Shown here one piece after another: positions 20,640 through 53,579 of a stretch of DNA of 64,000 nucleotides. The notes below the pieces were generated by a model. The model made no database searches and was not told the origin of the DNA. It saw only the letters and a program-made list of their open reading frames with translations. Source of the stretch: Herbidospora daliensis (lineage in GTDB: Bacteria > Actinomycetota > Actinomycetes > Streptosporangiales > Streptosporangiaceae); the NCBI RefSeq assembly GCF_001570585.1, contig NZ_BBXF01000003.1, forward strand, positions 221,353-285,352, given 5' to 3'. The position numbers and the translations under genes were made by a program. Positions within the stretch are counted from its first letter, which is position 1; each line of letters starts with the position of its first letter.

Positions 20640-20930
20640 ATGACCGTCGACGAGCTCCGCGCCAAGGCCGCCGAGCGCCAGCAGACGTGCAGCCAGATCA
20701 AGAAGATGATCGTGTCCCGCCTCGACCTCGAGGTCGAACCCGACTGGATCACCGACGACCAGCCCCTCTTCGGCCGCGGCCTCGAACTCGACAGCCTGGA
20801 CGTGCTGGAGCTGTACGTCGCGATCGAGGCCGAGTTCGGGGTGGCCCTCTACGACAGCGAGATGGCCGTCTTCGGCTCCATCTCCCGCCTCGCCGACGAG
20901 GTCAACCCGCGGCTCAGGGCGGCCGCATGA
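20640..20930 (+). CDS. Acyl carrier protein
   Basis: This 96-residue protein carries the 4'-phosphopantetheine site in 'GLELDSLDVLELYVAIEAEFG', with Ser as the attachment residue. A somewhat longer, lysine-rich N-terminal helix precedes the carrier fold. It should tether the growing chain for the neighbouring ketoreductase, dehydratase and KS-CLF. The gene overlaps the dehydratase start by four bases, which indicates coupled expression. Confidence 0.9.
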   Translation: MTVDELRAKAAERQQTCSQIKKMIVSRLDLEVEPDWITDDQPLFGRGLELDSLDVLELYVAIEAEFGVALYDSEMAVFGSISRLADEVNPRLRAAA

Positions 20931-21400: not shown

Positions 21401-21404
21401 CCCG

Positions 21405-22457: not shown

Positions 22458-22485
22458 TCGGTTCCGCCAGGTAAGGAGATCCAGA

Positions 22486-24726
22486 ATGGCGCTGCGGCCC
22501 GTCGTCGTCACCGGCTTGGGAGTCATCTGTGCCATCGGCCGGGACCCCGAAGAGTTCTGGCGACGGCTCACCACCGGACAGGGCGGCCTCACCCCCATCC
22601 GGGACCCGGCCTTCGAAGTTTTCGAGGCCCGGTACGCCGGACAGGTCCCGGACGAGTGGGTCACCGGGCAACTGCCCGAGCCCGACACCGCCCTCGACCG
22701 CACCGCCGCCCTCGCCCTGATCGCCGCCCGCCAGGCGATCGCCCAGGCGGGGCTGACCGGCGTCGACCCCGCCCGGTTCGGGATGATCCTCGGCAAGTGC
22801 CAGGCCACCCCGGACGCGGCCGGCCACTACCAGCCCATGCACCACACCCAGGACGTGATCGCCGACCGGCTGGGCATGCGCGGCCCTCGCATCCTGGTGT
22901 CCACCGCCTGCGCGGCCGGCGGCAACGCGGTCGGGCTGGCCAAGGACAAGATCCTCTCCGGGGAGGCCGACGCCGTCCTGGCGGGCGGCGTCGACCCCCT
23001 GCTGTTCGGCACGTACGCGGGCTTCGCCGGGCTCAAGGCCCTGAGCACCGGCCCGTGTCGGCCCTACAGCCACTCCGACGGATTGAACCTCGGCGAAGGG
23101 GCGGCGTTCCTGCTGCTGGAGCCGCTCGACCTGGCGCTGGCCCGGGGCGCGGTCCCGCTGGCCGAGGTCGCCGGCTACGGCCTGTCGGCCGACGCCTACC
23201 ACGCCACCGCCCCCGACCCCACCGGCCGGGGCGGGGTGTCGGCCATGCGGCGGGCGCTCGCCGACGCCGGCCTGACCACCGGCGACGTCGGCTACGTCAG
23301 CGGGCACGGCACCGGCACCCCGGCCAACGACGCGATGGAGGCCAAGGTCATGCGCGTGGTCTTCGGGCCGCGCGCCGGGCAGGTGCCGACCAGCAGCATC
23401 AAGTCGTTCGTCGGCCACACCCTGGGCGCGGCCGGCGCGGTCGAGGCGGTCGCCGCCGTGCTCGCCCTGCGCGACGGCCTCGCGCCGCCCACGATCGGCT
23501 TCGACGCCGGCGCCGAGCCGGGCGACCTCGACTTCGTGCCGAACGCCGCCCGCGAACTGTCGACCGACACGGTCGTCTCCAACAACTACGCGTTCGGCGG
23601 GAACAACGTCTCGCTGGTGCTGACCACGCCCGGCTCCGGCCGGGAGCACGCCGAACCGGCTCCCCGCGAGGTCGTCATCACCGGGCTCGGGCCGGTCAGC
23701 GGCCTCGGTGCCGGCGTCGCCGAGACCACCGAGGCGATCCTGGCCGGACGCCCCGCGCTGGGCGAGCGGCCCTCGCTGGAGGGCCGGACGTTCGCGCCCC
23801 GCTCGCTGTGGCGGCACATGAACAACCTGTCGCGCATGGCCATCGCGGCCGCCCGGCTGAGCTGGGAGGACGCCGGGCTGAAGCTGCCCAGGAAGGAGCT
23901 CGACGACGTCGGGCTGGTGTTCGCCACCGGCGCCGGGTCGGCCGAGAGCACCGGCGGCTTCGACGACAGCATCGCGGCCAACCCGAACAAGCCGGCCGTG
24001 CTCAGCTTCTCCAACGTGGTGCTGAACGCCACCGGCGGCGCGGTCTGCCAGACCCTCGGGTTCCGCGGGCCGACCACGACGATCTGCAACGGCGGGGCGT
24101 CGGCGTCGATCGCGCTCGACTGCGCGCAGGAGATGATCCGGGCGGGCAAGGCCGAGGTGGTCCTGGTCGTGGCCGCCGACGAGCACGTCGGCATCGTGCC
24201 GCAGGACGCGGTCGTGTCGCCGTACGACCGGGACTCGGCACGGGTGCCTGGTTCGGCGGCGGTCGCGTTCGTGGTGGAGGCGGCCGACCACTGCGCGGCG
24301 CGGGGCGGCACCCCGTACGCGAAGGTGCTGGGCCTCAGCCACGTCGGCGGGCCCTTCGACGGGCTCACCGGTCTCGCCGGGCTCACCGAGCCGTTCGACC
24401 TGGTGGTCGGGGCGGCGACCGGTGGCGGCGACGACGCCGAGGAGGCCGCCTCGGTGCTGGCCGCGCTGCCGGGCGTGCCGCTGACCGCGTCGGCCGGGCT
24501 CACCGGCGACTGCCAGGCCGCGACCGGCGCCCTGAACATCGCCCTGGCCGCGCTCGCCATCAGGGACGGGGTCGCGCCCGCCCTGACCGGGCTGGCCACC
24601 CCGGTGGAGGGCGGGCCGGCCGACTACCTGACCGAACCGGAGCTGCCGGAGCCGGCCCGGCGGGCGCTGGTGCTCAGCGCCGCGCCCGGCTCGGTGCGCG
24701 GCGCGGTCGTGCTGGGGGCGGTATGA
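22486..24726 (+). CDS. Fused ketosynthase - chain-length-factor-like protein
   Basis: The protein has 746 residues in two thiolase-fold halves. Residues 1-380 form an intact ketosynthase with Cys142 ('STACAAGG'), His274 ('GHGTGT') and His311 ('KSFVGHTLGAAG'). Residues 393-746 form a second KS-like unit. There the active-site Cys position is Gly (about 537, in 'ICNGGAS') and both His motifs are missing, as in chain-length factors. It should extend acyl chains on the ACP by decarboxylative condensation. Fusion of the two subunits in one chain differs from the usual separate KSa/KSb genes. It is preceded by a good AAGGAG site, and its stop overlaps the nitroreductase start. Confidence 0.87.
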   Translation: MALRPVVVTGLGVICAIGRDPEEFWRRLTTGQGGLTPIRDPAFEVFEARYAGQVPDEWVTGQLPEPDTALDRTAALALIAARQAIAQAGLTGVDPARFGMILGKCQATPDAAGHYQPMHHTQDVIADRLGMRGPRILVSTACAAGGNAVGLAKDKILSGEADAVLAGGVDPLLFGTYAGFAGLKALSTGPCRPYSHSDGLNLGEGAAFLLLEPLDLALARGAVPLAEVAGYGLSADAYHATAPDPTGRGGVSAMRRALADAGLTTGDVGYVSGHGTGTPANDAMEAKVMRVVFGPRAGQVPTSSIKSFVGHTLGAAGAVEAVAAVLALRDGLAPPTIGFDAGAEPGDLDFVPNAARELSTDTVVSNNYAFGGNNVSLVLTTPGSGREHAEPAPREVVITGLGPVSGLGAGVAETTEAILAGRPALGERPSLEGRTFAPRSLWRHMNNLSRMAIAAARLSWEDAGLKLPRKELDDVGLVFATGAGSAESTGGFDDSIAANPNKPAVLSFSNVVLNATGGAVCQTLGFRGPTTTICNGGASASIALDCAQEMIRAGKAEVVLVVAADEHVGIVPQDAVVSPYDRDSARVPGSAAVAFVVEAADHCAARGGTPYAKVLGLSHVGGPFDGLTGLAGLTEPFDLVVGAATGGGDDAEEAASVLAALPGVPLTASAGLTGDCQAATGALNIALAALAIRDGVAPALTGLATPVEGGPADYLTEPELPEPARRALVLSAAPGSVRGAVVLGAV

Positions 24727-30500: not shown

Positions 30501-30955
30501 CCCCCGCCGTCCTGGTCGGGGTGGACATCGTCTCGGCCGACCGGCTGACCCGGGCCGCCGAGCGCGGCGGCGCGACCTTCGCCCGCCACCTCACCACCGT
30601 CGCCGAACGCGACCGGGGCCCGGGCACCGCGACGTTCCCGGTCAAGGAGAGCTTCATCAAGGCCGTCGGGGGCCGCCCGCCCGGCTTCAGCTGGCACGAC
30701 TTCGAGGCCGCGGCGCAGCCGCCGCCGCCCTGGGCCGCCGGTCTGCTCGACGAGGCGGCCGCCGAGCTCACCGCCGCCACCGGCCTGGCCCTGACCGAGG
30801 GCGCGGCGTACGTCCTGCGCGGCGCCTGCCGGGAGGCGGCCCGGCTCCGCCTCGACGGCCCGGTGGCGGGCGCGGCCCGCTGGGGGAGCGGCGCGGGGCT
30901 GCTCGTCTCCCTCGCCGTCGTCTACGTCGACAGGAAGGACACCCGATGTCCATGA
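30497..30955 (+). CDS. AcpS-like phosphopantetheinyl transferase, N-terminal motifs intact
   Basis: This 152-residue protein starts with the AcpS motif 'GVDIVSADRL' (Asp10) and continues with 'FPVKESFIKAVGG' (Lys50-Glu51), so the two metal ligands are present. The C-terminal half, which normally ends with a 'SHT' strand, is poorly conserved. It is the mirror image of the other AcpS-like protein in this operon, which has only the C-terminal motifs. Expected function: transfer of 4'-phosphopantetheine from CoA to the operon's own ACPs, perhaps as a hetero-oligomer with the product of 28439-28864. Confidence 0.7.
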   Translation: MTPAVLVGVDIVSADRLTRAAERGGATFARHLTTVAERDRGPGTATFPVKESFIKAVGGRPPGFSWHDFEAAAQPPPPWAAGLLDEAAAELTAATGLALTEGAAYVLRGACREAARLRLDGPVAGAARWGSGAGLLVSLAVVYVDRKDTRCP

Positions 30956-31950
30956 CCAGAACCGTCCGGCCCGGCGGGTCGGTCCAGGAGGCCCTGGACG
31001 AGGCGGGCCCCGGCGCGACGATCCTGCTCGCCGCCGGTGAGCACCCGGGCAACGTCTGGATCAGGCACGACGGGGTGACCCTGCGCGGCGAGGGGGCCGT
31101 GCTGGTCCCCGGGCCGGGTCTCCGCCCCGACGTGCCGAAACTGCATGACGCGGGCGAGGACGTCGTCTCCGGCGTCGTCGCGCACGGCGTCCGCGACGTC
31201 ACCCTCGACGGGCTGACGGTGCGCGGCTTCTCCGGCGCGGGCGTCTACGCCCACTCGGTCACCGGCCTGTCCGTCCGCGACGTGACCGCCGCGGGCAACG
31301 CCGTCTGGGGCGTCTACGTGCGCGAGACCACCGGCTGCGAGGTGCTCCGGTGCCGCGCCTCCGGCAGCCAGTACGGCGGCGTCGCGGTCAGCTTCTGCGG
31401 CCGGGGCGAGGCGCTCGTCGAGGGCAACGAGACCTTCGCCAACGCGTTCGGCGTGTTCGTCGACAACTCCAGCGGGGTGCGGGTGCTGCGCAACCTCAGC
31501 CACGGCAACGCGATCGGGCTGATGCTGCTCAACCAGACGTACGAGGGGGAGCCCGACGGCGGGGTGCGCGACTGCCTGGTCGCCGGCAACGTCGTCCACG
31601 GCAACGGCCTGGCCTCCGGCGGCGACGACCCCGGCGCGCTCGGCGCGGCCGGCCCGCCGATCTCCGGGGTGGGCATCGCGCTGATCGGCACCGAACGGGT
31701 GTGCGTGGTCGACAACGACGTCCACGACAACCACCCCAGCGGCGCGTCGGTGATGGGCGCGGCGTTCGTGATGGGCTCCTCGAAGGGCTGGGGCGGCGAC
31801 GACGCGGTCGCCAACCACGTCCTGTGGAACAGGGTCACCGGCAACACGCCGCTGGACTACCAGCTCGGCGTCGACCTCGCGCTCCAGACCTTCGCGGCCA
31901 ACGTGGCCGCCAAGGGGGAGCCCGGCGAAGTGGCGGGGTGGCGGTCATGA
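30946..31950 (+). CDS. Right-handed parallel beta-helix protein
   Basis: The 334-residue protein is built of short repeats such as 'GVTLRGEG', 'VRDVTLDGLTVRGFSGAGVY', 'SGVRVLRNLSHGNAIGLML' and 'VVDNDVHDN', the NosD/pectate-lyase-like beta-helix pattern. There is no signal peptide or membrane segment, so it should be cytosolic, unlike most carbohydrate-active members. Such folds include lyases, epimerases and isomerases. In this operon it may act on the product or an intermediate; the reaction is unknown. It overlaps the AcpS-like gene by ten bases and the ABC ATPase by four. Confidence 0.75.
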   Translation: MSMTRTVRPGGSVQEALDEAGPGATILLAAGEHPGNVWIRHDGVTLRGEGAVLVPGPGLRPDVPKLHDAGEDVVSGVVAHGVRDVTLDGLTVRGFSGAGVYAHSVTGLSVRDVTAAGNAVWGVYVRETTGCEVLRCRASGSQYGGVAVSFCGRGEALVEGNETFANAFGVFVDNSSGVRVLRNLSHGNAIGLMLLNQTYEGEPDGGVRDCLVAGNVVHGNGLASGGDDPGALGAAGPPISGVGIALIGTERVCVVDNDVHDNHPSGASVMGAAFVMGSSKGWGGDDAVANHVLWNRVTGNTPLDYQLGVDLALQTFAANVAAKGEPGEVAGWRS

Positions 31951-32885
31951 CCAGCACGCTGACGTGCGAAAACTTGAGCAAGACCTACGGCGGCGTGGTC
32001 GCGGTGCGCGACGTCGGGTTCACCGTCGCGCCGGGGGAGGCGTACGGGCTGCTCGGCCCGAACGGCGCCGGCAAGACCACCACGATCTCCATGCTGGTCG
32101 GCCTGCTCAAGCCCGACACCGGCACGGTCGTGGTCGGCGGTGCGGACCTCGCGGCCGACCCGATGGCGGCCAAGGCGAAGATCGGCTACGTCCCGCAGGA
32201 GATCGCCCTCTACCCCGACCTGACCGGCCGGGAGAACCTGCGCTTCTTCTGCCGCCTGTTCGGCCTGCCGCGCCGGGAGGTGCGCGCGCGGGTGGAGGAG
32301 GTGCTCGACCTGGTCGGCCTCGCCGACCGCGCCGACGCCAAGCTCGACACCTACTCGGGCGGCATGAAGCGGCGCATCAACATCGGCGCCGCCCTGCTGC
32401 ACCGCCCCGAACTGCTGATCCTGGACGAGCCCACGGTCGGCGTCGACCCGCAGAGCCGCAAGTCCATCCTCGACGGCCTCGAGCGCCTGGTGGCCGACGG
32501 CATGGCGCTGATCTACACCTCCCACTACATGGAGGAGGTCGAGCGCATCTGCAGCCGGGTCGCCATCATCGACCACGGCTCCATCGTCGCCGAGGGCACC
32601 CGCCACGAGCTCGTCGAACTGGTCGGCGGGGCCGACCGGATCGAGCTCACCCTCGACGGCGACGTCGAGACCGCGCTCGCCAAGCTCCGCGGCCTGGGCG
32701 GCGTCACCGAGGCGGTCCGCACCTCGGCCGCGTCGGTCCGGCTGATCGCCGAAGGCGGCCGGTACCTGCTGCCCTCGGTCATCTCCACGGTCGACGGCAT
32801 CGCCGCCGTCACCGCCGTCGAGGTCGTCGAACCCGACCTCGAGGCCACCTTTCTGCACCTCACCGGCAGCACGCTCAGGGACTGA
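31947..32885 (+). CDS. ABC-2 exporter ATP-binding subunit
   Basis: The 312-residue ATPase has Walker A 'GPNGAGKTT', signature 'YSGGMKRR', Walker B 'LLILDEP' and the H-loop 'IYTSHYMEE', followed by a C-terminal extension typical of drug-export ATPases (DrrA, CcmA-like). With the next two genes it forms a one-ATPase, two-permease ABC-2 exporter. It probably pumps out the cluster product and gives self-resistance. It is part of the same run as the biosynthetic genes. Confidence 0.93.
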   Translation: MTSTLTCENLSKTYGGVVAVRDVGFTVAPGEAYGLLGPNGAGKTTTISMLVGLLKPDTGTVVVGGADLAADPMAAKAKIGYVPQEIALYPDLTGRENLRFFCRLFGLPRREVRARVEEVLDLVGLADRADAKLDTYSGGMKRRINIGAALLHRPELLILDEPTVGVDPQSRKSILDGLERLVADGMALIYTSHYMEEVERICSRVAIIDHGSIVAEGTRHELVELVGGADRIELTLDGDVETALAKLRGLGGVTEAVRTSAASVRLIAEGGRYLLPSVISTVDGIAAVTAVEVVEPDLEATFLHLTGSTLRD

Positions 32886-32886
32886 C

Positions 32887-34065
32887 ATGTTGCGATCGCT
32901 TCTCACGGTGAGCGCCCTGGAGCTCCGGACCCGGGTGCGGGACCGGACCGCCCTGATCATCGCCATCATCGTGCCGGTGGCCATGGCCACCCTGTTCGGG
33001 GTCGCCCTCGGCGGCGACGACCCGCCGCTGCGGGCCACCGTCGGCATCGTCGACCAGGACGGCGGCGAGTTCCCGGCCGGCGTCCGCCGCGAGGTCCTGG
33101 CGTCCACTGAGCTGTCCGGCGTGCTGACGCTGCGCGACCTGCCCGGCCGCGAGCAGGCCCAGCGTGCCCTCGACGCGGGCGACATCGGGGCCGCGATCAT
33201 CTTCCCCGCCGGGTTCAGCGACAGCGTCGGGGCGGGCGAGGGCGGCCGGGTCGGCGTGCTGACCTCGGCCGACACGCCGCTCGCCGGGGTGGTCGCGAAC
33301 GCCGTGGTGGACCGGATCTCCAGCCTGGTGCGGGCCCGCACGCTCGCGGTCCGCGCCTCCCTGGAGGCGGGCGTGCCGGCCGCCGAGGTCAAGGAGTTCG
33401 TGGAGCGCAACGGCGCGGCCGGACCGGCGCTGACCCTGGAGAATGACCCGATGGCCGGCGGCAGGGTCGACCTGTCGGTCTACTACGGCGCTGGCATGGC
33501 CGCGCTGTTCGCCTTCTTCGTGGTCGGCGCGTCCTTCCGCAGCCTGCTGATCGAACGCAAACAGGGCACCCTCGACCGGATGCGGGCCGGACCGATCCAC
33601 GGCTGGGTCCCGATCGCGGGCAAGGCCGTCGTCGGCTTCGCCCTCGCGATGGTCAGCGTCTGCGTCACCTGGGGCTCCTCGGTGCTGATCTTCGGCTCCA
33701 CCTGGGGCGACCCGGTGGCCGTGTTCACCCTGCTGCTCGCGCACGTGCTGGCCGCCACGGCGATCACCATGCTGGTCGCCAGCCGGGCCAGGACCGACGC
33801 CCAGGCCGACGGGGTGATCATGGTGATCTCGTTCGTGGCCGCGTTCTTCGGCGGCAGCCTGGTCCCGCTCTACACGCTGCCCGACGTGCTCCAGACGATC
33901 GCCCTGTTCACCCCGAACGCCTGGACCACCACCGGGCTCACCGGCCTGGCCGGATCGGGCGCGGGACTGGCCTCGGTGGCCCTGCCGATCGGCGTCCTGC
34001 TCGCGATCGCCGTCGCCGCCTTCGGGCTCGCCGCGACCGGCTTCAGGAAGGGACTGCTCGGATGA
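32887..34065 (+). CDS. ABC-2 type permease 1
   Basis: This 392-residue permease has one N-terminal membrane span ('ALIIAIIVPVAMATLFGVALG'), a large extracytoplasmic loop (residues 40-200), and five to six C-terminal spans beginning 'YYGAGMAALFAFFVVGASF'. The architecture matches ABC-2 drug or lipid exporters (DrrB/YhgE-like). The gene begins one base after the ATPase stop and overlaps permease 2 by four bases, which points to a heteromeric exporter. Confidence 0.9.
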   Translation: MLRSLLTVSALELRTRVRDRTALIIAIIVPVAMATLFGVALGGDDPPLRATVGIVDQDGGEFPAGVRREVLASTELSGVLTLRDLPGREQAQRALDAGDIGAAIIFPAGFSDSVGAGEGGRVGVLTSADTPLAGVVANAVVDRISSLVRARTLAVRASLEAGVPAAEVKEFVERNGAAGPALTLENDPMAGGRVDLSVYYGAGMAALFAFFVVGASFRSLLIERKQGTLDRMRAGPIHGWVPIAGKAVVGFALAMVSVCVTWGSSVLIFGSTWGDPVAVFTLLLAHVLAATAITMLVASRARTDAQADGVIMVISFVAAFFGGSLVPLYTLPDVLQTIALFTPNAWTTTGLTGLAGSGAGLASVALPIGVLLAIAVAAFGLAATGFRKGLLG

Positions 34066-35204
34066 GACCCCACCCCGTGTTCGCGCTCGTCGCCGCCAAC
34101 CTGCGCCGCCACTCCCGCGACCGCGTCGGCCTGTTCTTCATCGTGGTGATGCCGTTCGTCAGCATCATCTTCGTCGGCATGGCGCTGGGCGGCGGCGCCG
34201 CCGCCTCGCGGTTGCCGGTCGGCGTGGTGGCCCAGGACGCCGATCCGGTCGCCGCCGCCGTCCTGGCGGAGCTGCGCGCGCACCCCGACCTGGAGATCAC
34301 CGCGGTCGGTGACGAGGAGGAACTGCGGGCCGGCGTCCGGGGAGGGGCGCTGGCCGCCGGGGTCGTCATCCCGCCGGGCTCGACCCGGCTGGAGCTGGTC
34401 ATGACGCAGTCCAACGGCAGCGGCATGGCCGCCCGCAGCGCCGTGGACGCCTCCGTCGGCCGGGTCGCCGGCGTCATCGAGGCCACCCGCGCCGCCACCT
34501 CGGCCGGCGCGACCCCGGCGCGGGCCGCCGAACTGGTGCGCCAGGCGCAGGCCGCCTCGGCCGACGTCGAGGTGGTCAACTCCGACACCGCCTCAGGCAC
34601 CCCTCGGGGGTTCGCGTACACCGCGCCCGCCAACCTGCTGCTGTTCACGTTCATCAACTCCATGGCCGTCGCCGCCGCGCTCGTCGAGAGCCGCCGCATC
34701 GGCATGCTGCCCCGGGCCTTCACCGCGCCGGTGCGGCGCGGGGCCGTGCTGTTCGGCGAGGCCCTCAGCCGCTTCATCGTGGCCGCCGCCCAGGCGGTGC
34801 TGATCATGGTGGTGAGCTCGCTGCTGTTCGGCGTCTCCTGGGGCGAGCCGCTCGGCGTCGCCGCCGTCGTGGGCGTCTTCGCCCTGGTCGCCACCGGCGC
34901 CGCGATCCTGATGGGCAGCCTGGTGCGCTCGTCGGCGCAGCCGTCGGCGATCGGGCCGCCGCTCGGCATCGTGCTCGGCATGCTCGGCGGCTGCCTGTGG
35001 CCCGCCGAGGCGGCCGGCCCGACGCTCGACACCATCGGCCATCTGTTCCCGCACGCCTGGGGGATGGACGCGCTTCTGACTCTTTCCCGGCCCGGGACCG
35101 GACTCGCCGACGTGCTGCTCGAGGTCGCGGTCCTGGGCCTCATGGCCGCCGTTCTGCTGAGCCTGTCCCTTGTCCTGTTCAGCCGACGAACGAGAACCCT
35201 CTGA
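34062..35204 (+). CDS. ABC-2 type permease 2
   Basis: The 380-residue permease has the same layout as its neighbour: an N-terminal span ('GLFFIVVMPFVSIIFVGMAL'), an extracytoplasmic domain, and C-terminal spans starting 'PANLLLFTFINSMAVAAALV'. It likely pairs with permease 1 to form the membrane pore of the exporter. Twelve bases separate it from the following regulator gene. Confidence 0.9.
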   Translation: MRPHPVFALVAANLRRHSRDRVGLFFIVVMPFVSIIFVGMALGGGAAASRLPVGVVAQDADPVAAAVLAELRAHPDLEITAVGDEEELRAGVRGGALAAGVVIPPGSTRLELVMTQSNGSGMAARSAVDASVGRVAGVIEATRAATSAGATPARAAELVRQAQAASADVEVVNSDTASGTPRGFAYTAPANLLLFTFINSMAVAAALVESRRIGMLPRAFTAPVRRGAVLFGEALSRFIVAAAQAVLIMVVSSLLFGVSWGEPLGVAAVVGVFALVATGAAILMGSLVRSSAQPSAIGPPLGIVLGMLGGCLWPAEAAGPTLDTIGHLFPHAWGMDALLTLSRPGTGLADVLLEVAVLGLMAAVLLSLSLVLFSRRTRTL

Positions 35205-35216
35205 GGAGGCAGCACC

Positions 35217-36164
35217 ATGATGAATTCGACTGCCAAGTGGCCCGCCGACATCGCCGGCGTCTACCGATACGCGACCAGCAAAGGCGCCATCGACGCCCTC
35301 GACGTGGCGGCCGGTGAGCTCGGCATCGGCATGCGCGAGCTGAACGAGGCGGTGAACCAGCTCGTCGAGAGCCGCCTGTTACGCGCCGTCGACGGCGCCG
35401 CCCGCCGGTTCATCCCGGTCGACCCGCAGGTCGCGGCCAACGCCCTGGTCTCCTCGGTCGAGCGGGAGATCTACCAGCGGCGGGAGCTGATCGACCAGAT
35501 CCGCGACTTCGTCGGCCCGGCGCCCTCGCCGATCGAGTACCTCGCCGGGTCGCTGGAGGTGCGGGGTTTCCTCAAGATGGCCGGCGACGCCTGCCGCACC
35601 GAGGTGCTGGTCCTGCAATCGGGCGAGGACGACGCCGAGGAGCTGGCGCGGGCCTACCTGCCACTGCTCTCGCGCGGCGTCACGGTGCGGATCGTCTGCC
35701 GGCACCGCAACCGGGCCGACCTGACCACCCGCATGAAGCTCAAGCAGCTCATCGACGCGGGCGCGGCCATCGGCACGGTCAGCCACGTGCCGCGCTCCGC
35801 GGTGGTCTTCGACCGGGAGCTGGTCGTGCTGTTCGGCCTGTCGGACGGCGAGACCAACGTGGCGCGGGTGCACAACGACGGCATCGTCGGGTTCCTGCTC
35901 GACCTGTTCGACCACCTGTGGGACACCGCGACGCCGCTGGAGGGCCCCGAGTCGGGCTACGCCAACGTCGCCGACGACCTGCGGCAGGCCATCGCCGGGC
36001 TGATGGCGAAGGGCTACACCGACGAGGTGGTGGCCCGCAAGCTCGGCATGTCGGTGCGCAGCTGCCGCCGGCACATCGCCACCCTGATGCGTGACCTGGA
36101 GGCCACCAGCAGGTTCCAGGCGGGGGTGCAGGCGGCCCGCACGTTCCTGGCCAGCGGCGCCTGA
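35217..36164 (+). CDS. TrmB/LuxR-type transcriptional regulator with a TTA codon
   Basis: In this 315-residue regulator, residues 10-60 look like a TrmB-type winged helix. Residues 70-240 form a phospholipase-D-like ligand domain, as in other actinomycete TrmB/LuxR hybrids. Residues 255-300 form a LuxR-type helix-turn-helix ('MAKGYTDEVVARKLGMS', 'RSCRRHIATLM'). Leu55 is encoded by TTA (35379-35381), the second regulator here with this rare codon. ATG at 35217 has a strong GAGGAGG site seven bases upstream. It is the last gene of the long operon and probably controls the exporter or the whole cluster. Confidence 0.85.
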   Translation: MMNSTAKWPADIAGVYRYATSKGAIDALDVAAGELGIGMRELNEAVNQLVESRLLRAVDGAARRFIPVDPQVAANALVSSVEREIYQRRELIDQIRDFVGPAPSPIEYLAGSLEVRGFLKMAGDACRTEVLVLQSGEDDAEELARAYLPLLSRGVTVRIVCRHRNRADLTTRMKLKQLIDAGAAIGTVSHVPRSAVVFDRELVVLFGLSDGETNVARVHNDGIVGFLLDLFDHLWDTATPLEGPESGYANVADDLRQAIAGLMAKGYTDEVVARKLGMSVRSCRRHIATLMRDLEATSRFQAGVQAARTFLASGA

Positions 36165-36199: not shown

Positions 36200-37354
36200 T
36201 CATCGCGTCGCCACCACGACGCCGGCCAGGGCCAGCGCCCGGTCGCAGACCAGGTTCAGCCCTCTGACCAGCTCCTCCACCGTCATGCGGGGGCTCAGGC
36301 ACATCCTGATGGAGCTGTTGGCGTCCTCCGCGCCCACCCCGATGGCGGTGAGCACGGGTGAGGGTTCCTGGGAGTCGGAGTTGCACGCCGACCCGGTCGA
36401 CAGCGCCACCGACGGCAGGCTGGCGACCAGGCTCTCGCCGCGCACCCCCGGCAGCACCACGTTCAGCACGTGCGGGACGCCGGCCTCGGGACGGCCGTTG
36501 AGGCGCAGGCCGGGGATCCGGCGGGCGAGCAGTTCCAGGGCGGTCGCGCGCAGCAGCGCGACCCGCTTCGTGTCCTCCTCCATGCGGGCGGCGGCCAGCT
36601 CGCAGGCCTTGCCGAGGCCGACCGCCAGGTGGGTGGGGATGGTGCCGCTGCGCAGGTCGTACTGGCCGCCGCCGTAGGTGATGGGGCGGAGCCTGCGGCG
36701 GATCTCCGGGCGGACGTACAGGACGCCGATGCCCTTCGGGCCGCCGATCTTGTGGGCGGACATGGCCAGGGTGTCGACGGCCGTGCCGGTCACGTCGATC
36801 GGGATCCGGCCCGCGGCGGGGGCGGCGTCCACATGCAGCAGGGCGCCGCCCTCGTGGCAGATCGCGGCCATCTCGCGGACCGGCTGGACGGTGCCGATCT
36901 CGCTGTTCACCCAGGCGACCGTGGCCAGCCGGGTGTCGAAGTCGACCTGGCCGGCGAACCGGGTCAGGTCGACCACGCCGTCGCCCCGGATCGCCATGGT
37001 CCGGACGTCGACGCCGCGCCCGCGCAGCGCGCGGGCGACCGACAACGACGACTTGTGGTCGGTGGGGCAGAACACCGCGTTGACCGGGGCGCGGTCGTCG
37101 TGGCGGAACACGCCGAGCAGCGCGATGTTGTTGCTCTCGGTCGCGCCGGAGGTGAACACGACGCCCGACGGGTCGCCGCCGAGGAGCCGCGCGACCGAGT
37201 CGGCCGACCCGTCCACCGCCCTGCGGGCACGCTTGCCCAGCAGGTGAGGGGAGGACGGGTTGCCGAACTCCTCGCGCAGATACGGCAGCATCGCGTCGAG
37301 CACTTCCTCGTCCACCCGGGTGGTGGCGCAGTTGTCCAGGTAAATGACGTCCAT
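36200..37354 (-). CDS. Cysteine desulfurase (NifS/IscS type)
   Basis: The 384-residue PLP enzyme starts 'YLDNCATTRVDEEVLDAM'. It has the PLP-binding Lys in 'SAHKIGGPKG', the Asp in 'LLHVDAAPAAG', and the persulfide-forming Cys in 'STGSACNSDSQEPS', so all key residues of group I desulfurases are present. It takes sulfur from cysteine as an enzyme-bound persulfide. No Fe-S assembly genes (iscU, sufBCD) or tRNA-thiolation genes are nearby. It is the last gene of a minus-strand run with an unrecognised cysteine-containing protein and a condensation protein, so a role in putting sulfur into the product is a fair inference. Confidence 0.9.
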   Translation of the reverse strand: MDVIYLDNCATTRVDEEVLDAMLPYLREEFGNPSSPHLLGKRARRAVDGSADSVARLLGGDPSGVVFTSGATESNNIALLGVFRHDDRAPVNAVFCPTDHKSSLSVARALRGRGVDVRTMAIRGDGVVDLTRFAGQVDFDTRLATVAWVNSEIGTVQPVREMAAICHEGGALLHVDAAPAAGRIPIDVTGTAVDTLAMSAHKIGGPKGIGVLYVRPEIRRRLRPITYGGGQYDLRSGTIPTHLAVGLGKACELAAARMEEDTKRVALLRATALELLARRIPGLRLNGRPEAGVPHVLNVVLPGVRGESLVASLPSVALSTGSACNSDSQEPSPVLTAIGVGAEDANSSIRMCLSPRMTVEELVRGLNLVCDRALALAGVVVATR

Positions 37355-37365
37355 CGTTCCGCCCC

Positions 37366-38256
37366 TCAGCTCCGGAAGGTGCTGACCGTCACCAGCTTCG
37401 AGTAGATCTCGTCGGTGGACATCTCGCCGCTGCCGCCGGGGTCGGCGATCACGACGGTCATGCCGCCCAGGCCGTAGAGGCTGAGCGCGATCTCGACCCC
37501 CGTCCGCACCGGGGACATGCACTCGCCCGGGGCGAAGATCACGATGGTCCGGTAGCCGGCCTGGTGGACCTCCGAGATCATCTCGGTGATCTCGCCGGCG
37601 CAGCCGGTGACGCCGCAGCTGATCAGCGTGCGGTAGTTGCCCGATTCGTCCAGGAACGAGACCTCGGTGTCCTTGGCGCCGGACTCCAGCACCCGCTTCT
37701 CGAGCTTGCCCTGCTTGACGAACTTGTCGGCCGCCTTCTGGAAGCGGTACTTGAGCCACGTCTCCGGGAACGCCAGCGGGTGCTTGCGGCTGGGCAGCAC
37801 GCTCCCGGCGTCCAGGCCCGCCTCGCGCAGGATGCGCTCGTAGCTCTCGGGCAGGCCGGTGAAGCCGTCGAGGAACTCGGCGCGCAACTCGCTCGCGGGG
37901 CGGCCGCCGGTGGGGACGTACTGCCAGTCGTTGACGAGCAGCAGCAGTTTGGCGTCGGTGACGACCTTCGCGTACGAGGTGATCAGGTCGACCGAGAGCT
38001 GCCAGGTGTAGGCCGGGAAGACGCCGACCCGGCCGGCGATCCGGTCGCGCATCGTGGCGGAGGTCTGCTCCTCCATGACGCCGGGCACGAGCCGGCCGGT
38101 GCCCTCCTCCTCGAACAGCATGAAGTGGCCGCCCATGATGACGAGCTCGTCGAGCTTGGCGGCGGCGAGCTCGCGGTCGATGGCGGTGCGCAGCTCCTGC
38201 TCCGAGCCGACGAGCTGGTCGAACTTGCTTATGGATTCCGTGAACAGTTCACTCAT
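37366..38256 (-). CDS. Unrecognised cytosolic protein with a CxxxxC motif, candidate sulfur acceptor
   Basis: I do not recognise this 296-residue protein. It is soluble, with no signal peptide or membrane span, and looks alpha/beta: 'LDELVIMGGHFMLFEEEG' and 'AKLLLLVNDWQYVPTGG' near the N-terminus, a lysine-rich helical middle, then 'LISCGVTGCAGEITEMISE' and 'TIVIFAPGECMSPVRTG'. The only cysteines I see are these three (C-x4-C, then one about 30 residues later), all in the C-terminal third. The gene lies 11 bases upstream of the desulfurase, and its start overlaps the condensation gene stop by four bases. A persulfide acceptor or sulfur-transfer partner is one hypothesis; a metal or Fe-S site is another. 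Confidence 0.7.
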   Translation of the reverse strand: MSELFTESISKFDQLVGSEQELRTAIDRELAAAKLDELVIMGGHFMLFEEEGTGRLVPGVMEEQTSATMRDRIAGRVGVFPAYTWQLSVDLITSYAKVVTDAKLLLLVNDWQYVPTGGRPASELRAEFLDGFTGLPESYERILREAGLDAGSVLPSRKHPLAFPETWLKYRFQKAADKFVKQGKLEKRVLESGAKDTEVSFLDESGNYRTLISCGVTGCAGEITEMISEVHQAGYRTIVIFAPGECMSPVRTGVEIALSLYGLGGMTVVIADPGGSGEMSTDEIYSKLVTVSTFRS

Positions 38257-39815
38257 GATCGAACTCCGGGGTGTAGTGATTGTCCCGCCAGGGTGCTCAG
38301 CGGTGTGCCGCCGGTGAGCTGGTGGAGGGTGACTCCCGACCACCCGAGGTCGTGGAGCAGGGCGAGCACCCGCGGGATCCGCAGGACCCTGCCCCCGGCC
38401 TCGGCGTAGTTCCGGGCCGGGTCGACGCCGGCCAGGCCGTTCGCCCGGCCGACGGCGGCCGCCAGGGCCGCCACCGCCTCAGGGTCCGGGACGGCCCCCA
38501 CGCCGGGCGCCCGGCCGGGCGGCGGCGCCGGGGCGAAGCCGGCCAGGGCCGCGACGTCGCTGATCCGCAGGCCGTCCGGCGTCGCGTCGTAGGTGAGGAT
38601 CGTGGTCTCCAGGGCGCGCAGGAACCGCTCGACGGCGTCGGCGTCCATGACCGAGGAGGCGGCGTTCATCGCGACCACGACGGAGTCGAGCCACTGGTCG
38701 ACCCGGACGTAGGTGTCGGTGCCGTGGGTGTCGGCCGCCGGCTGCCAGGTGATGCGGCTGCGCCGCGCGCGCGACTCCAGGGTGGGCTGCTTGATGAAGT
38801 TGAACTCCGACGCGAGCCGGGCGCCCTTCCCGGCCAGCAGCTCGACCACCGCGTCGTAGGGCACGTAGGCGTGCTCGCGCGCCTGCTCGAACCGGTCGGC
38901 GACGCGGGCGAGCAGCTCGGCGAACGGCGGGTCGTCGCGCACGTCGACGCGCATCAGAAGCGGCGAGAACATGCAGGTCAGGACCTGTGAGTACGGCCCT
39001 TCCTCGCGGTTGCCGGTGAACGTCAGATGGTCGAACGACGGGCCGCCGGTGTAGGCGGCCATCAGCGCCGTGTAGGCCGCCAGGTGCACCTGCGACGGCC
39101 ACACCCGGTGGCGGGCGGCGATGCGCTGCGCGGCGCCCAGCAGGGCGGGGGAGACCAGCGACGCCCGCAGCGTCTCCGCGGGCGGTCCGGGCCGGCGGCG
39201 GGCGGCGAACCCGTCGGCCGGCATGCCCTCGATCTCCTTCTCCCAGTACGCCAGCGCCGGCGCCGGGTCGAGGGACGCCTCGTGCCGGGCGAGGTCGGAG
39301 GGGCGGTGCCGGACCGGTTCGATCGCGGTGGGCCGCCGGGCGACCACGCCCGCGCAGCTCGCCCACATCTCGCGCTTGAGCTCCGTGACCGTCCACATGT
39401 CGACCGCGAGGTGGTTCAGCACCACCACCGCCCGCCGGGGCTCGCCGCCCTCGGTGATGACGACGACCCGGATCGGCCACTCCCCGGCGAGGTCGAACTC
39501 GGCCGTGCCGAGCCGTTCCACGACCTCGGCGGGCATGGCGGTGCCGTCCTTCTCCGCCGACAGGACGACGAGGGGGCACGGGCCGGGCGGGCGTACGACC
39601 CGGTAGGGGTCGCCGTCGAGGTCGAAGTGGTAGGTGGTGCGCAGCGTCTCGTGCCGGCGCACCGTCTGATTGAGAACCGCCCGGCAGTTCTGGACCGTCA
39701 GGCCCGCTGGAATGTCCAGATTGAGAATGATATGTGTATTGTGCCGAGCGTGCGGCGGCAGTTCGTGGTAGCGGAGCCAGATGTAATGCTGGCCCCAGCC
39801 GAGATTCGTCTTCAT
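38253..39815 (-). CDS. Free-standing condensation domain fused to an inactive carrier domain
   Basis: In this 520-residue protein, residues 1-425 are an NRPS condensation fold. The active-site motif HHxxxDG is 'NHLAVDM' (134-140): the second His (135) and the Asp (139) are kept, the first His and Gly are not. Residues about 444-515 resemble a peptidyl carrier domain ('VDPARNYAEAGGRVLRI'), but the Ser of GGDSL is Val477, so it cannot carry phosphopantetheine. Such proteins form amide or ester bonds between carrier-bound acyl groups, or act on free amines. It is coupled to the unknown protein by a four-base overlap and is divergent from the ACP gene. Confidence 0.82.
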   Translation of the reverse strand: MKTNLGWGQHYIWLRYHELPPHARHNTHIILNLDIPAGLTVQNCRAVLNQTVRRHETLRTTYHFDLDGDPYRVVRPPGPCPLVVLSAEKDGTAMPAEVVERLGTAEFDLAGEWPIRVVVITEGGEPRRAVVVLNHLAVDMWTVTELKREMWASCAGVVARRPTAIEPVRHRPSDLARHEASLDPAPALAYWEKEIEGMPADGFAARRRPGPPAETLRASLVSPALLGAAQRIAARHRVWPSQVHLAAYTALMAAYTGGPSFDHLTFTGNREEGPYSQVLTCMFSPLLMRVDVRDDPPFAELLARVADRFEQAREHAYVPYDAVVELLAGKGARLASEFNFIKQPTLESRARRSRITWQPAADTHGTDTYVRVDQWLDSVVVAMNAASSVMDADAVERFLRALETTILTYDATPDGLRISDVAALAGFAPAPPPGRAPGVGAVPDPEAVAALAAAVGRANGLAGVDPARNYAEAGGRVLRIPRVLALLHDLGWSGVTLHQLTGGTPLSTLAGQSLHPGVRS

Positions 39816-40006: not shown

Positions 40007-40264
40007 ATGGAAATACCTCACGAGTTCCAGGCCATTCTTCGCCGGCATCTGCCCTACGCCGGGCCGGGTGATCTGGCCGCCGACGACGATCTCACCGCGC
40101 TCGGTCTCGATTCGATGGGGGTGGTGCAGTTGCTCGTCGATCTGGAAGACGGATACGACTGGGAACTGCCCGACGACATCCTCGACGAGGAGACGTTCGC
40201 CACGGTGGGGTCGTTGTGGACCCGGTTGTCGGCGCTGCTCGGCGCGGCGCGGGCCGGACTCTGA
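40007..40264 (+). CDS. Free-standing acyl/aminoacyl carrier protein
   Basis: This carrier protein of about 85 residues has the phosphopantetheine site in 'LTALGLDSMGVVQLLVDLED'. ATG at 40007 is chosen over GTG at 40004 because GAGGAGA ends six bases upstream of it. It lies three bases before an adenylating enzyme that is coupled to a PLP decarboxylase. By analogy with macrolactam starter pathways it probably holds an amino acid while it is decarboxylated. The 191-base gap to the divergent condensation gene contains one TGCCAGAG sequence (39921) resembling the words upstream of the PKS gene. Confidence 0.88.
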   Translation: MEIPHEFQAILRRHLPYAGPGDLAADDDLTALGLDSMGVVQLLVDLEDGYDWELPDDILDEETFATVGSLWTRLSALLGAARAGL

Positions 40265-40267
40265 GCC

Positions 40268-41725
40268 GTGCCGACCCGCCTCGACGACCTGCTGCGGTCC
40301 GGCGCCGACGACCACGCGGCGCTCACCTACAAAGACGTGACGCTCACCTACCGCGAGCTGCGGAGCCGGGTCGCGCGGGCGGCCGGGGGGCTGCGCGGGC
40401 TGGAGCCCGGCGCCCGGGTCGCCGTCTACGCGGAGAAGCGGATCGAGACGGTCGTGGCGATCTTCGCGGTGGCGGCGGCCGGCGGGGTCGTCGTGCCGAT
40501 CAACCCGCTCTTCAAGGCGCGGCAGGTCGACTACGTGATCGACGACTGCGGCGCGGTGCTCCTGCTGACCACGCCCGAGCGGGCCCGCACGCTGACCGCC
40601 TCGGCGCCCACGGCGATGCTCGACGACCTCGACGCCGGACCGCCGGGCCCCGCCGGGCGCGGCGACGCCTCCCCGGTCGCGGCCATCCTCTACACCTCCG
40701 GCAGCACCGGACGGCCGAAGGGCGTCGTGCTGAGCCACGGCAACCTGCTCGCGGGGGCGCGGAGCGTCGCCGGCTACCTCGGCCACACCTCCGACGACGT
40801 GGTGCTCGCGGCGCTGCCGCTGAGCTTCGACGCCGGGTTGAGCCAGCTCACCACCGCGTTCCTGGCCGGAGCCCACGTGGTGCTGGTCAACTACCTGCTG
40901 CCGCGCGACGTCGTCCGGCTCTGCGCCCGGCACGGGGTGACCGCGCTGACCTGCGTGCCGCCGTTGTGGACGCAGCTCGCCACCCAGAACTGGCCGCCCG
41001 AGGCGACGCGCAGCCTGCGGTACTTCGCGAACACCGGCGGCCGCCTGCCCGCCACCACCCTGGCCAGGTTGCGCGAGACGTTCCTGCAGGCCACCCCCTT
41101 CCTGATGTACGGCCTGACCGAGGCCTTCCGGTCCACCTACCTCGACCCCGCCGAGATCGACCGCCGGCCCGGCTCGATCGGCAAGGCGATCCCCGGCGCG
41201 GAGGTCCTCGTCGTGCGGGCCGACGGTTCGGCCTGCGACCCCGGCGAGGAGGGGGAGATCGTGCACCGGGGCCCGCTGGTGTCACTCGGCTACTGGAACG
41301 ACCCGGCCCGCACGGCCGCGCGGTTCCGGCCGTTCCCGCCCGGCGCCGACGAGATCGCCGTCTGGTCGGGCGACGTCGCCTACCGCGACGACGACGGCTT
41401 CATCTACTTCGTGGGGCGCACCGACGAGATGATCAAGACCTCCGGCTACCGGCTCAGCCCCACCGAGGTGGAGGAGGCGGCCTACGCCACCGGCCTGGTC
41501 GCCGAGGCCGTCGCGGTCGGCGTGCCGGACGAGGAACTGGGCGAGCAGGTGGCGCTGCACGCCGTGCTCACCGCCGCCACCACCCCCGACGAACTGCGCC
41601 GGGCGATGGAACGCGACCTGCCCCGGTACATGGTGCCGCGCCGGTTCATCCTCGCCGACGCGCTGCCCCGCTCGGGCAACGGCAAGTTCGACCGCGCCGA
41701 GCTCCGCCGCCGGGCGCTGCGATGA
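40268..41725 (+). CDS. AMP-forming amino acid:ACP ligase
   Basis: The 485-residue ANL-superfamily enzyme has the ATP motif 'YTSGSTGRPKG' (142-152), 'YGLTEAF', 'GDVAYRDDDGF', hinge 'GRTDEMIKTSGYRLSP' and the catalytic Lys in 'SGNGKFDR'. 'LPLSFDAGLSQL' keeps the Asp that, in amino-acid-activating enzymes, binds the substrate amino group, so an amino acid is the likely substrate. The layout (ACP, ligase, decarboxylase) matches VinL/VinN/VinO and FlvL/FlvN/FlvO. The specificity code cannot be read safely by eye. GTG start, three bases after the ACP stop. Confidence 0.87.
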   Translation: MPTRLDDLLRSGADDHAALTYKDVTLTYRELRSRVARAAGGLRGLEPGARVAVYAEKRIETVVAIFAVAAAGGVVVPINPLFKARQVDYVIDDCGAVLLLTTPERARTLTASAPTAMLDDLDAGPPGPAGRGDASPVAAILYTSGSTGRPKGVVLSHGNLLAGARSVAGYLGHTSDDVVLAALPLSFDAGLSQLTTAFLAGAHVVLVNYLLPRDVVRLCARHGVTALTCVPPLWTQLATQNWPPEATRSLRYFANTGGRLPATTLARLRETFLQATPFLMYGLTEAFRSTYLDPAEIDRRPGSIGKAIPGAEVLVVRADGSACDPGEEGEIVHRGPLVSLGYWNDPARTAARFRPFPPGADEIAVWSGDVAYRDDDGFIYFVGRTDEMIKTSGYRLSPTEVEEAAYATGLVAEAVAVGVPDEELGEQVALHAVLTAATTPDELRRAMERDLPRYMVPRRFILADALPRSGNGKFDRAELRRRALR

Positions 41726-42924
41726 GCTGGGAAGGCCACCGCGACGGGCAGCTGACCGTCGGCGGCGTTCCCGCCGGAACGCTCGCCGCCCGCGTCGGGA
41801 GCACGCCGTTCTTCGCCTACGACCGCGACCTCGTCACCCGCCGGGTCGCCCTCCTGCGCACGGTCTTGCCCGCCGAGGTCGAGCTGAACTACGCCGTCAA
41901 GGCCAACCCGATGCCCGCCCTGCTCCAGCACCTGAGCGGCCTGGTCGACGGCTTCGACGTGGCCTCGGCCGGGGAGCTGAAGCACGCGCTCGACACGCCG
42001 GTGCCCCCCGCGCGGATCGGTTTCGCCGGGCCGGGCAAGACCGTCGGCGAGCTGACCCAGGCGGTCGCGGCCGGCGTGACGGTGGAGCTGGAGTCGGAGA
42101 CCGAACTGGCCCGGGTGCGCGCGATCGGCGCGGAACTTGGGATTCCCGCCCGGATCGCGATCCGGGTCAATCCCGACTTCACCGTGCGGGGCTCCGGCAT
42201 GCGCCTGGGCGGCGGGCCGCAGCAGTTCGGCATCGACGCCGAACGGGTGCCGCAGGTGCTCGCCCGGCTGGGCGACGACGTCGACTTCCAGGGGTTCCAC
42301 GTCTTCGCGGGCTCCCAGAACCTGCGCGCCGACCACATCTGCGAGGCGCAGCGGCACACCGTCGACCTGGTCCTCGGGCTCGCCGAGGTGTCGCCGCCCA
42401 TCCGCTACCTCAACCTCGGCGGCGGGTTCGGCATCCCCTACTCGCGCCGCGACCAGCCCCTCGACCTGGCGCCGATCGGCGACAACCTGGCCCGGCTGCT
42501 GCGCGAGCGCGTCACGCCGCGGTTGCCGGAGGCCCGCGTCGTCGTCGAACTCGGGCGCTACCTGGTCGGCGAGGCCGGCGTGTACGTCACCCGGGTCGTG
42601 GACCGCAAGGAGTCGCGGGGCACGACCTTCGTGGTCGTCGACGGCGGCATGCACCACCAACTGGCGGCCTCGGGGAACCTCGGGCAGGTGATCCGGCGCA
42701 ACTATCCGATGGCCGTCGCCGACGGCGTCGGGCGGCCCGTCGACCCCCCGGTCACCGTGGTCGGCCGCCTGTGCACCCCGCTCGACCTGCTCGGCGACCG
42801 GGTGGAACTCCCGCGCGTCGACGTCGGCGACCTGGTCGTCGTCTTCCAGGCCGGCGCCTACGGCCTGACCGCGAGCCCCACGGGCTTCCTCAGCCACCCG
42901 GCGCCGGTCGAGATCCTCGTCTGA
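41722..42924 (+). CDS. PLP-dependent fold-type III amino acid decarboxylase
   Basis: The 400-residue enzyme has the PLP Lys in 'NYAVKANPMPALL', the phosphate-binding 'LNLGGGFGIPY', and the 'GRLCTPLDLLG' and 'AGAYGL' segments with the Cys and Tyr completed from a second subunit, as in diaminopimelate and ornithine decarboxylases. It belongs to the subgroup found beside an ACP and an AMP ligase, where decarboxylation takes place on the ACP-bound amino acid (FlvO gives beta-alanyl-ACP from aspartyl-ACP). The product here would be an amine-bearing acyl-ACP. The start overlaps the ligase stop. Confidence 0.88.
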   Translation: MSWEGHRDGQLTVGGVPAGTLAARVGSTPFFAYDRDLVTRRVALLRTVLPAEVELNYAVKANPMPALLQHLSGLVDGFDVASAGELKHALDTPVPPARIGFAGPGKTVGELTQAVAAGVTVELESETELARVRAIGAELGIPARIAIRVNPDFTVRGSGMRLGGGPQQFGIDAERVPQVLARLGDDVDFQGFHVFAGSQNLRADHICEAQRHTVDLVLGLAEVSPPIRYLNLGGGFGIPYSRRDQPLDLAPIGDNLARLLRERVTPRLPEARVVVELGRYLVGEAGVYVTRVVDRKESRGTTFVVVDGGMHHQLAASGNLGQVIRRNYPMAVADGVGRPVDPPVTVVGRLCTPLDLLGDRVELPRVDVGDLVVVFQAGAYGLTASPTGFLSHPAPVEILV

Positions 42925-42951: not shown

Positions 42952-44319
42952 CTACGGCAGCGGCACGGTCGCGGGGAACAACGACGGCGCCAGGGCCGCC
43001 TGGTCGACGTCCCACAGATCCTTGAGGCTGGTCTCCGGGGCCGTCGCCGCCATCTGGACGCCGAGCGCGATCGTGCGCATCATCCCGGCCATGCTCTCGG
43101 CCGAGATGATGGTCGGGTCGGCGAGCATGAAGACACTGGTCCGGCCGTTGGCGACCGTCACCCTGACCCGGAACGGCTGGCCGTACTGCTGCGCCAGCGG
43201 CGTCCACGACAACTCGGCCGGAACGTCGCTGGTGGCGTCGGACGGCCGGCGGTCGAGCTGCACGTAGTTGAACCAGCAGCGGAACAGCTGGTTCACCCAG
43301 CAGTCGTGCGTCAGCTCGACGCCGCGCTCCGCGGCGACCTCCGCGGCGAGCGCGGCGATCCGGTCGAAATCGTAGGAGGAGTAGCGGTACGCCTTCGCCC
43401 CGGCCCAGTGGAGGCGCTTGACGTGCTCGCCCAGCGGCGATCCCGGGTCGACGGTCGTGACGACCGGGATGAGCTGGTTCATCGTGCCGATCACATGGTG
43501 GTGCTCCGGCGAGAACCGGTTGGAGGCCATCAGGCTCATCGTCACCCTGTCGGTGTCGGTGTGCCGGGCCAGCCCGGCCGCGACCAGCGCCATCACCAGC
43601 GCGGGCGCGGTGACGCCGAGCCGCTTGGCGGCCAGCGCGGCCAGCCCGCCGAGGCGGTGGGAGTGCAGGGTGGCCTCGATCCGGTCGCGCTTGACCTTGG
43701 CCGGCAGCGTCGGCAGCGGGTCGGCCAGGACGTCGCCGAGGGCGCGCCGCCAGTAGCGTTCCGACGCCTCCTGCCGGTCGCGCCACCGCTCGCCGCGCTG
43801 CTCGACCGCCAGTTCTCTCGGCGTGGGCCCGAGTTCGGCCACCGCCCCCGGGTCGGCGATCAGGGCGCTGAACTGGTCGGTCAGGTGGTTGATCGACCAG
43901 ACGTCCATGATCAGATGGGAGAACGACAACGCCAGGAACACGGCCGAGCCGTTGGTGGTGATCATGCGCCCGCGCCAGCACAGGCCGCCCTCCATCGCGA
44001 ACGGCTCGGCGCAGAGTTCGTCCTTGGTGTCCTCCGGGTCCTCCCAGTCGCGGACCACCCGGTCGATGCGCTCGATCGGCAGTTCGGCCGACTCGTGCAC
44101 CCGCTGCACCGGCTGCCCGTCGACGACGTGGTAGGTCGTGCGCAGCGGCTCGTGCCGGTCCATCAGCACCCGCAGCGCGTTCTCGACCCGGGCCATCGGC
44201 AATCCCCGCAGGTCGCAGACGATGGGGAGGTTCGCGTCCTGCATCCAGTCGTCGGGATAACGCTCGATCTCGCGCCAGCTGAAGAGCTGGCCGTGGCTGA
44301 GGGGGGCGTCGGCGGGCAT
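42952..44319 (-). CDS. Second free-standing condensation-domain protein
   Basis: The 455-residue condensation-fold protein has active-site motif 'SHLIMDV' (134-140). It keeps His135 and Asp139 but replaces the first His with Ser and the Gly with Val-Trp. It shares the early motif 'RHEPLRTTYH' with the first condensation protein (38253-39815), and the two catalytic motifs align at the same residue numbers, so they are probably paralogues. It lacks the carrier-like tail. It may form a second amide or ester bond, or the two may act together. It lies eight bases after a small membrane-protein gene on the same strand. Confidence 0.82.
   Translation of the reverse strand: MPADAPLSHGQLFSWREIERYPDDWMQDANLPIVCDLRGLPMARVENALRVLMDRHEPLRTTYHVVDGQPVQRVHESAELPIERIDRVVRDWEDPEDTKDELCAEPFAMEGGLCWRGRMITTNGSAVFLALSFSHLIMDVWSINHLTDQFSALIADPGAVAELGPTPRELAVEQRGERWRDRQEASERYWRRALGDVLADPLPTLPAKVKRDRIEATLHSHRLGGLAALAAKRLGVTAPALVMALVAAGLARHTDTDRVTMSLMASNRFSPEHHHVIGTMNQLIPVVTTVDPGSPLGEHVKRLHWAGAKAYRYSSYDFDRIAALAAEVAAERGVELTHDCWVNQLFRCWFNYVQLDRRPSDATSDVPAELSWTPLAQQYGQPFRVRVTVANGRTSVFMLADPTIISAESMAGMMRTIALGVQMAATAPETSLKDLWDVDQAALAPSLFPATVPLP

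Positions 44320-45176: not shown

Positions 45177-53568
<8,392 letters not shown>

Positions 53569-53579
<11 letters not shown>

Follow-up and report, generated by a model that had tools for sequence, protein, structure and literature searches.

A recurrent gene pair of a cysteine desulfurase and an LPD16-related protein as a possible sulfur-transfer unit in bacterial biosynthetic loci

In a stretch of 64,000 nucleotides from the soil actinomycete Herbidospora daliensis (contig NZ_BBXF01000003.1, positions 221,353 to 285,352; hereafter the window), three genes on the minus strand encode the condensation-domain protein C1, the protein P0001 and a cysteine desulfurase (Table 1). An earlier note on this DNA had singled them out as tightly packed, and all three open reading frames are present: the start of P0001 overlaps the stop of C1 by 4 bp and the desulfurase gene lies 11 bp downstream of P0001, and the three genes therefore very probably share one operon-like transcript. 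The surrounding cluster is pks-1 of H. daliensis NBRC 106372, which has been described in silico only and is present in all five Herbidospora type strains; a polyene-like chain was predicted for it, no product has been isolated, and the term desulfurase is absent from that paper (PMC4599437). The present analysis centers on P0001 and the desulfurase, which recur as a pair in distant bacteria and may form a unit for sulfur transfer.

Table 1. Genes of the C1/P0001/desulfurase locus and of its surroundings, with positions in the window
Feature	Position	Strand	Basis
Cysteine desulfurase, 384 residues, IscS/NifS/DndA group, active-site motifs intact	36200..37354	-	PF00266 E=5e-68; NCBIfam; motifs; own clade
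P0001, 296 residues, LPD16-related, C214/C219/C246, proposed sulfur-transfer enzyme	37366..38256	-	LPD16 match; cysteine conservation; models and Foldseek
C1, stand-alone condensation-domain protein, 520 residues	38253..39815	-	PF00668 E=1.2e-22; partner conserved only in Streptosporangiaceae
Small acyl carrier protein (ACP), 85 residues	40007..40264	+	PF00550; kept in cluster family
AMP-forming ligase, TIGR03098 type, probably loads ACP	40268..41725	+	TIGR03098 above cut-off
Pyridoxal phosphate (PLP) decarboxylase, TIGR03099 type	41722..42924	+	TIGR03099 above cut-off
C2, second stand-alone condensation-domain protein, start not fixed	42952..44301	-	PF00668 E=1.5e-32
First polyketide synthase gene of pks-1, 2800 residues	45177..53579	+	size equals s03-orf254 in PMC4599437
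Second polyketide synthase gene of pks-1, 1794 residues	53569..58953	+	size equals s03-orf255 in PMC4599437
Beta-helix protein, ABC exporter (three genes), helix-turn-helix regulator	30946..36164	+	kept beside pair in Streptosporangiaceae

A genome scan with a six-member P0001 alignment yielded 47 loci, and two Priestia plasmids were found separately; the loci compared comprise 27 from Streptosporangiaceae (the window and 26 scan loci) and 22 others (21 scan loci and one Priestia plasmid). P0001 is followed directly, and in the same direction, by the desulfurase gene in all 27 of the former and in 19 of the latter, that is in 46 of 49 loci. The pair is thus strongly conserved, also outside this type of cluster, whereas the earlier note had named a lack of conservation as a refutation. 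Besides Streptosporangiaceae it occurs in Photorhabdus, Xenorhabdus, Pseudomonas, Pandoraea, Brucella, Paenibacillus, Bacillaceae and on a Priestia plasmid, with at least three phyla represented (Actinomycetota, Bacillota and Pseudomonadota). One further locus (L074) ends at P0001, and in a Verrucomicrobial one (L075) the desulfurase gene lies upstream of the P0001-like gene and its product falls outside the partner clade. All other partner desulfurases form one clade (support 99/100) that excludes six paralogs of the same genome; as the outgroup is small, the separation of this lineage holds only for the sequences in the tree. The P0001 and desulfurase trees recover the same main groups. P0001 itself is rare, with true relatives in 5 of 395 genomes of its class, the window's own counted, and in 2 of 321, 2 of 241 and 2 of 300 genomes of three other groups, the center genome being counted each time. 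In two Verrucomicrobial loci (L075:6522-17000 and L084:8725-13183), a sodium:solute symporter, a desulfurase, a distant LPD16-like protein and a large methyltransferase-domain protein stand together, and in L084 a tyrosine-recombinase-like gene, recognized by eye, is close by.

C1 matches PF00668 and has the catalytic second His of HHxxxDG, as expected of a condensation domain; its motif is the variant N-H-L-x-x-D-x-W, whose catalytic His and Asp are kept in 26 of 26 relatives. It precedes P0001 in 26 of the 27 Streptosporangiaceae loci, the exception being a locus (L037) that begins 280 bases before P0001. Neither C1 nor any window gene beyond the pair was found in the loci outside Streptosporangiaceae. 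Because of this absence C1 does not belong to the core unit, and its inclusion in the earlier note has to be given up.

By its sequence, the window desulfurase is a complete enzyme of the IscS/NifS/DndA group that lies outside the named equivalogs. It has the PLP lysine (SAHK), the DHK histidine motif and the mobile-loop cysteine (SACNS). Its family conserves the same three sites, with a SAHK-type lysine motif, a DHK motif and an active-site loop that mostly reads SxGSACNS. Its scores stay under every NCBIfam equivalog cut-off (330 against 548 bits for the IscS type, 323 against 531 for NifS and 320 against 480 for DndA), and 'NifS-type', the term used before together with 'complete', is therefore a superfamily statement, while the completeness stands. 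No DndC-type match was found among the window genes scanned with Pfam, nor, as had been noted, any iron-sulfur (Fe-S) assembly, ThiS/TusA/MoeZ or tRNA-thiolation gene nearby, the scan having covered these genes and not every open reading frame. A defense-system reading was considered with PADLOC, which matched the desulfurase alone, to SspA/DndA models, and gave no match for P0001; this reading was not adopted.

P0001 had initially been regarded as unassignable, and it does match no curated family above the Pfam or NCBIfam cut-offs and has no convincing sequence relative of known structure. Its family, on the other hand, does match the domain LPD16 (PF18830), as seen for 29 of 30 members (E<1, best E 3.8e-10). 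Sequence comparison thus relates P0001 to LPD16, although its 17.5 bits fall under the gathering cut-off of 27. The alignment covers residues 101-193, the middle third; P0001-family proteins differ from the domain in being stand-alone, with 280-300 residues and extra N- and C-terminal parts, the cysteines being in the C-terminal one. LPD16 was named from polyvalent proteins of conjugative elements, with no function assigned (PMC5512222), and P0001 matches no family of other function. Three candidate matches were discarded as unrelated: the matches in two small actinobacterial genomes to o-succinylbenzoate synthase-like proteins, with about 70 residues aligned, a phmmer match to enzymes of the same kind (E 0.6), and a profile match to malic enzyme (E 0.02).

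As the earlier note had seen, the cysteines of P0001 are confined to the C-terminal third, and there are exactly three of them, C214 and C219 in the CGVTGC segment and C246. C219 and C246 are present in all 30 aligned members, as are H44, N109-Q112 (NDWQ), E165, E222 and E278; C214 is present in 29, and a GHF motif is common to all thirty. Among the most distant relatives, the C-x4-C spacing becomes C-x5-C or C-x6-C. The AlphaFold2 model of P0001, built on an alignment that omits one row from a plasmid record, is a good-quality alpha/beta fold (pLDDT 84, pTM 0.86), in which loop 213-217 is of low confidence, C219 leads into helix 220-232 and C246 is at the start of helix 244-260. Such positions would be expected of cysteines that either accept a persulfide or ligate a cluster. 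The suggested role of P0001 as persulfide acceptor is consistent with these suitably placed invariant cysteines, but there is no sign of a ThiS/TusA/MoeZ analogue: P0001 has 296 residues, no family member ends in GG, no ThiS, MoaD or TusA family is matched in Pfam, and the protein looks enzyme-like instead.

Foldseek placed arginyl-tRNA synthetase (ArgRS) first for the models of both P0001 and a Verrucomicrobial relative (E 1.3e-4 and 1.4e-4), with the cysteinyl, methionyl and glutamyl enzymes (CysRS, MetRS and GluRS) lower down the P0001 list. The resemblance is to the class I aminoacyl-tRNA synthetase core (ArgRS, CysRS, MetRS); P0001 differs by its size, about half, by its low TM-score and by its motifs, as HIGH and KMSKS are found in none of the 30 family members. 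The SGGxDS PP-loop is likewise absent from all 30, and no P-loop motif is found in the family. In view of the low TM-scores, the absence of signature motifs, and the fact that the two modelled sequences, 25% identical, share most rows of their input alignments, the models are described as synthetase-like rather than as those of a synthetase. P0001, with this predicted fold and many invariant polar residues, looks like an enzyme.

Two alternatives draw on this predicted fold. Cyclodipeptide synthases likewise lack HIGH and KMSKS, and P0001 might similarly use aminoacyl-tRNA, in which case the desulfurase would act on the product, for instance to remove or move cysteine sulfur, rather than feed P0001. 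The L-amino acid ligase and Ddl-like ligase genes described below would suit this improbable scheme, but P0001 matches no cyclodipeptide synthase family and its invariant cysteines would be left unexplained. It is slightly less probable still that the pair modifies RNA, for example to produce a thiolated tRNA nucleoside, with a methyltransferase found beside it in Photorhabdus taking the next step and with a role in self-protection or regulation within the clusters. An IscS-type desulfurase, a synthetase-like fold and a methyltransferase neighbor would be in keeping with such a role; P0001, however, has no RNA-binding domain or PP-loop, its distribution is very patchy, the methyltransferase is nearest to amino-acid N-methyltransferases, and the neighbors are exporters, ligases and PLP enzymes.

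Outside Streptosporangiaceae, the genes next to the pair vary. The third gene in Photorhabdus and Xenorhabdus encodes the above methyltransferase, whose nearest relatives are sarcosine/dimethylglycine N-methyltransferases, and in Priestia, two Pseudomonas, Pandoraea and Brucella it encodes a Ddl-like ligase, which in the three genomes checked is extra to other genomic Ddl genes. EamA exporters then follow in several of these loci. Priestia adds an alanine racemase, an alanine permease, an amino acid-ACP ligase, an ACP, an acyl-CoA dehydrogenase and an ATP-grasp enzyme with a weak match to an L-amino acid ligase domain, a gene run that looks like a small peptide antimetabolite cluster; the Priestia plasmid region (L016:14962-30849) also carries a ComX pheromone system beside the ligase and alanine genes. 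Pandoraea, Brucella and Pseudomonas S31 have, in addition, a radical S-adenosylmethionine (SAM)/B12 protein (TIGR04434 in Pandoraea) and a cystathionine beta-lyase-like PLP enzyme. This set, near the Ddl genes (L069:14654-17459 for the TIGR04434 case, L070:5429-8234, and L071 from 7145), is possibly a separate D-alanine-analogue cluster; among 249 genomes of one Pseudomonas genus, TIGR04434 gave fragments or below-cut-off matches only.

Taken from such neighbors, the product of the stand-alone pair would be small, amino-acid-like (alanine- or cysteine-like) and tied to D-alanine metabolism. For the Ddl genes, a protective and a biosynthetic role would both fit. Producers of D-cycloserine use Ddl, and a membrane protein, for self-protection, and several pair loci resemble the D-cycloserine cluster in having a Ddl-like gene and a transporter beside a small biosynthetic set. 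They differ in that no cycloserine biosynthetic genes were noticed at the pair loci and that the Streptosporangiaceae loci have no Ddl match.

The reading that we favor, tentatively and at somewhat less than even odds, is that P0001 and the desulfurase form a dedicated sulfur-transfer unit, P0001 activating a small substrate and attaching to it the sulfur that its cysteines have received. Observation extends to the gene pair, its conservation across loci, the residues that do not vary and the intact motifs of the desulfurase; the steps from persulfide transfer through substrate activation and sulfur placement to joining by C1 are what we infer. The desulfurase, by its family and intact active site, would take sulfur off cysteine as a persulfide and hand it on to P0001, where one of the three invariant cysteines would accept it. 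P0001 is small and has a predicted class I synthetase-like Rossmann domain; it would activate a carboxylate or carbonyl of a small amino-acid-like substrate and transfer the sulfur there, while another of its cysteines would resolve the persulfide. The product of a stand-alone unit might then leave the cell through EamA carriers, receive a methyl group or be coupled to further amino acids, the extra Ddl enzyme serving as protection or as ligase. In the window, C1 would join the product to the chain that the pks-1 polyketide synthase and the aminoacyl-ACP system make. MnmA, ThiI and TtuA are persulfide-dependent thiolases, and the proposed logic, although not the family, is theirs: a Rossmann-like enzyme with reactive cysteines, supplied by an IscS-type desulfurase, combines substrate activation with sulfur addition. 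The P0001 family differs by its lack of a PP-loop and of a tRNA-binding domain and by its location in metabolite gene clusters. Within antibiotic clusters, a precedent is provided by Pau30/Pau31 of paulomycin, where a desulfurase was proposed to supply cysteine sulfur (PMC4425429); both systems place a cysteine desulfurase with a dedicated partner inside a biosynthetic cluster, but the paulomycin partner is ThiF/MoeZ-like and the present one is an unrelated LPD16-type protein.

Several facts weigh against a sulfur-transfer unit. The fold match is weak, as the ArgRS matches have probabilities of 0.99-1.00 yet TM-scores of only 0.33-0.38 and a root-mean-square deviation above 10 Å, and its repetition in a second model is less independent for the shared alignment rows. 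With no HIGH, KMSKS, PP-loop or P-loop, use of ATP is without sequence support. No Ddl or EamA match exists in the Streptosporangiaceae loci, and the link to D-alanine is therefore not seen there. That sulfur arrives in any product of the pair loci is something we infer. Finally, the desulfurase has been lost in Photorhabdus thracensis (L067) and is not found beside a distant P0001 relative (L083), and the three cysteines would fit an Fe-S cluster equally well.

These last observations lead to the main alternative, itself rather unlikely: a [4Fe-4S] cluster would be bound by the cysteines of P0001, making it an Fe-S enzyme, the desulfurase would be a private supplier of sulfur for assembly of this cluster, and the product might be free of sulfur. 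Three invariant cysteines without a fourth are what usually ligates a catalytic cluster in which one iron stays open, and in L067 and L083 general machinery might stand in for the missing desulfurase. NadA in Bacillus is a known case of an Fe-S enzyme with its own NifS-like desulfurase. Nevertheless, C-x4-C with a third, remote Cys corresponds to no named Fe-S motif, the pair generally lacks an accompanying scaffold, carrier or radical-SAM domain, and an immediately downstream desulfurase in 46 of 49 loci is a tighter arrangement than in most cluster-supply pairs. Sulfur transfer and private Fe-S supply are poorly separated by the present facts.

Among the other genes of the window, the beta-helix (NosD-like) protein at 30946-31950 is kept wherever a cluster locus reaches that far. 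The families of the TIGR03098 ligase and TIGR03099 decarboxylase, encoded with the ACP at 40007-42924, were named from exosortase A systems; in most Nonomuraea and in other genera, an inverted ligase, about 30% similar, replaces the window type and the decarboxylase is missing. The first ketosynthase of 45177-53579 has DTGQSSS, with Gln for the expected active-site Cys, as in KSQ-type loading modules. At 21405-22457 a polyketide cluster has an unusual companion in a GcvT-like protein (aminomethyltransferase folate-binding), around which (19868-24726) lie genes for FabG, an ACP, a FabA-like dehydratase and a ketosynthase.

The natural routes by which small molecules acquire sulfur are understood in few cases, several of which borrow carrier proteins of primary metabolism. 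Desulfurases inside antibiotic clusters are already known, for example from paulomycin (PMC4425429), and in its general form the idea has precedents. What appears to be undescribed is the partner family and the occurrence of the pair in several phyla: no account of an LPD16-type protein paired with a desulfurase was found in the open-licence literature, and one may exist elsewhere. A bolder and doubtful extension of the sulfur-transfer reading is that LPD16-type proteins are a new thiolating family with a synthetase-like fold, which together with their private desulfurase convert an amino acid, possibly alanine released by that desulfurase, into a sulfur-substituted form, for example a thiocarboxylate; this would be a D-alanine-mimicking antimetabolite, countered by the extra Ddl and, in Streptosporangiaceae, joined to a polyene-type polyketide. 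The recurrence of the pair in unrelated small biosynthetic gene groups suggests a portable way to put sulfur into small molecules. If this is true, a compact two-gene unit that spans at least three phyla and whose settings are polyketide, peptide-like and stand-alone would provide a sequence handle for new sulfur-bearing metabolites, and the Ddl-like genes beside it would point to a cell-wall target.

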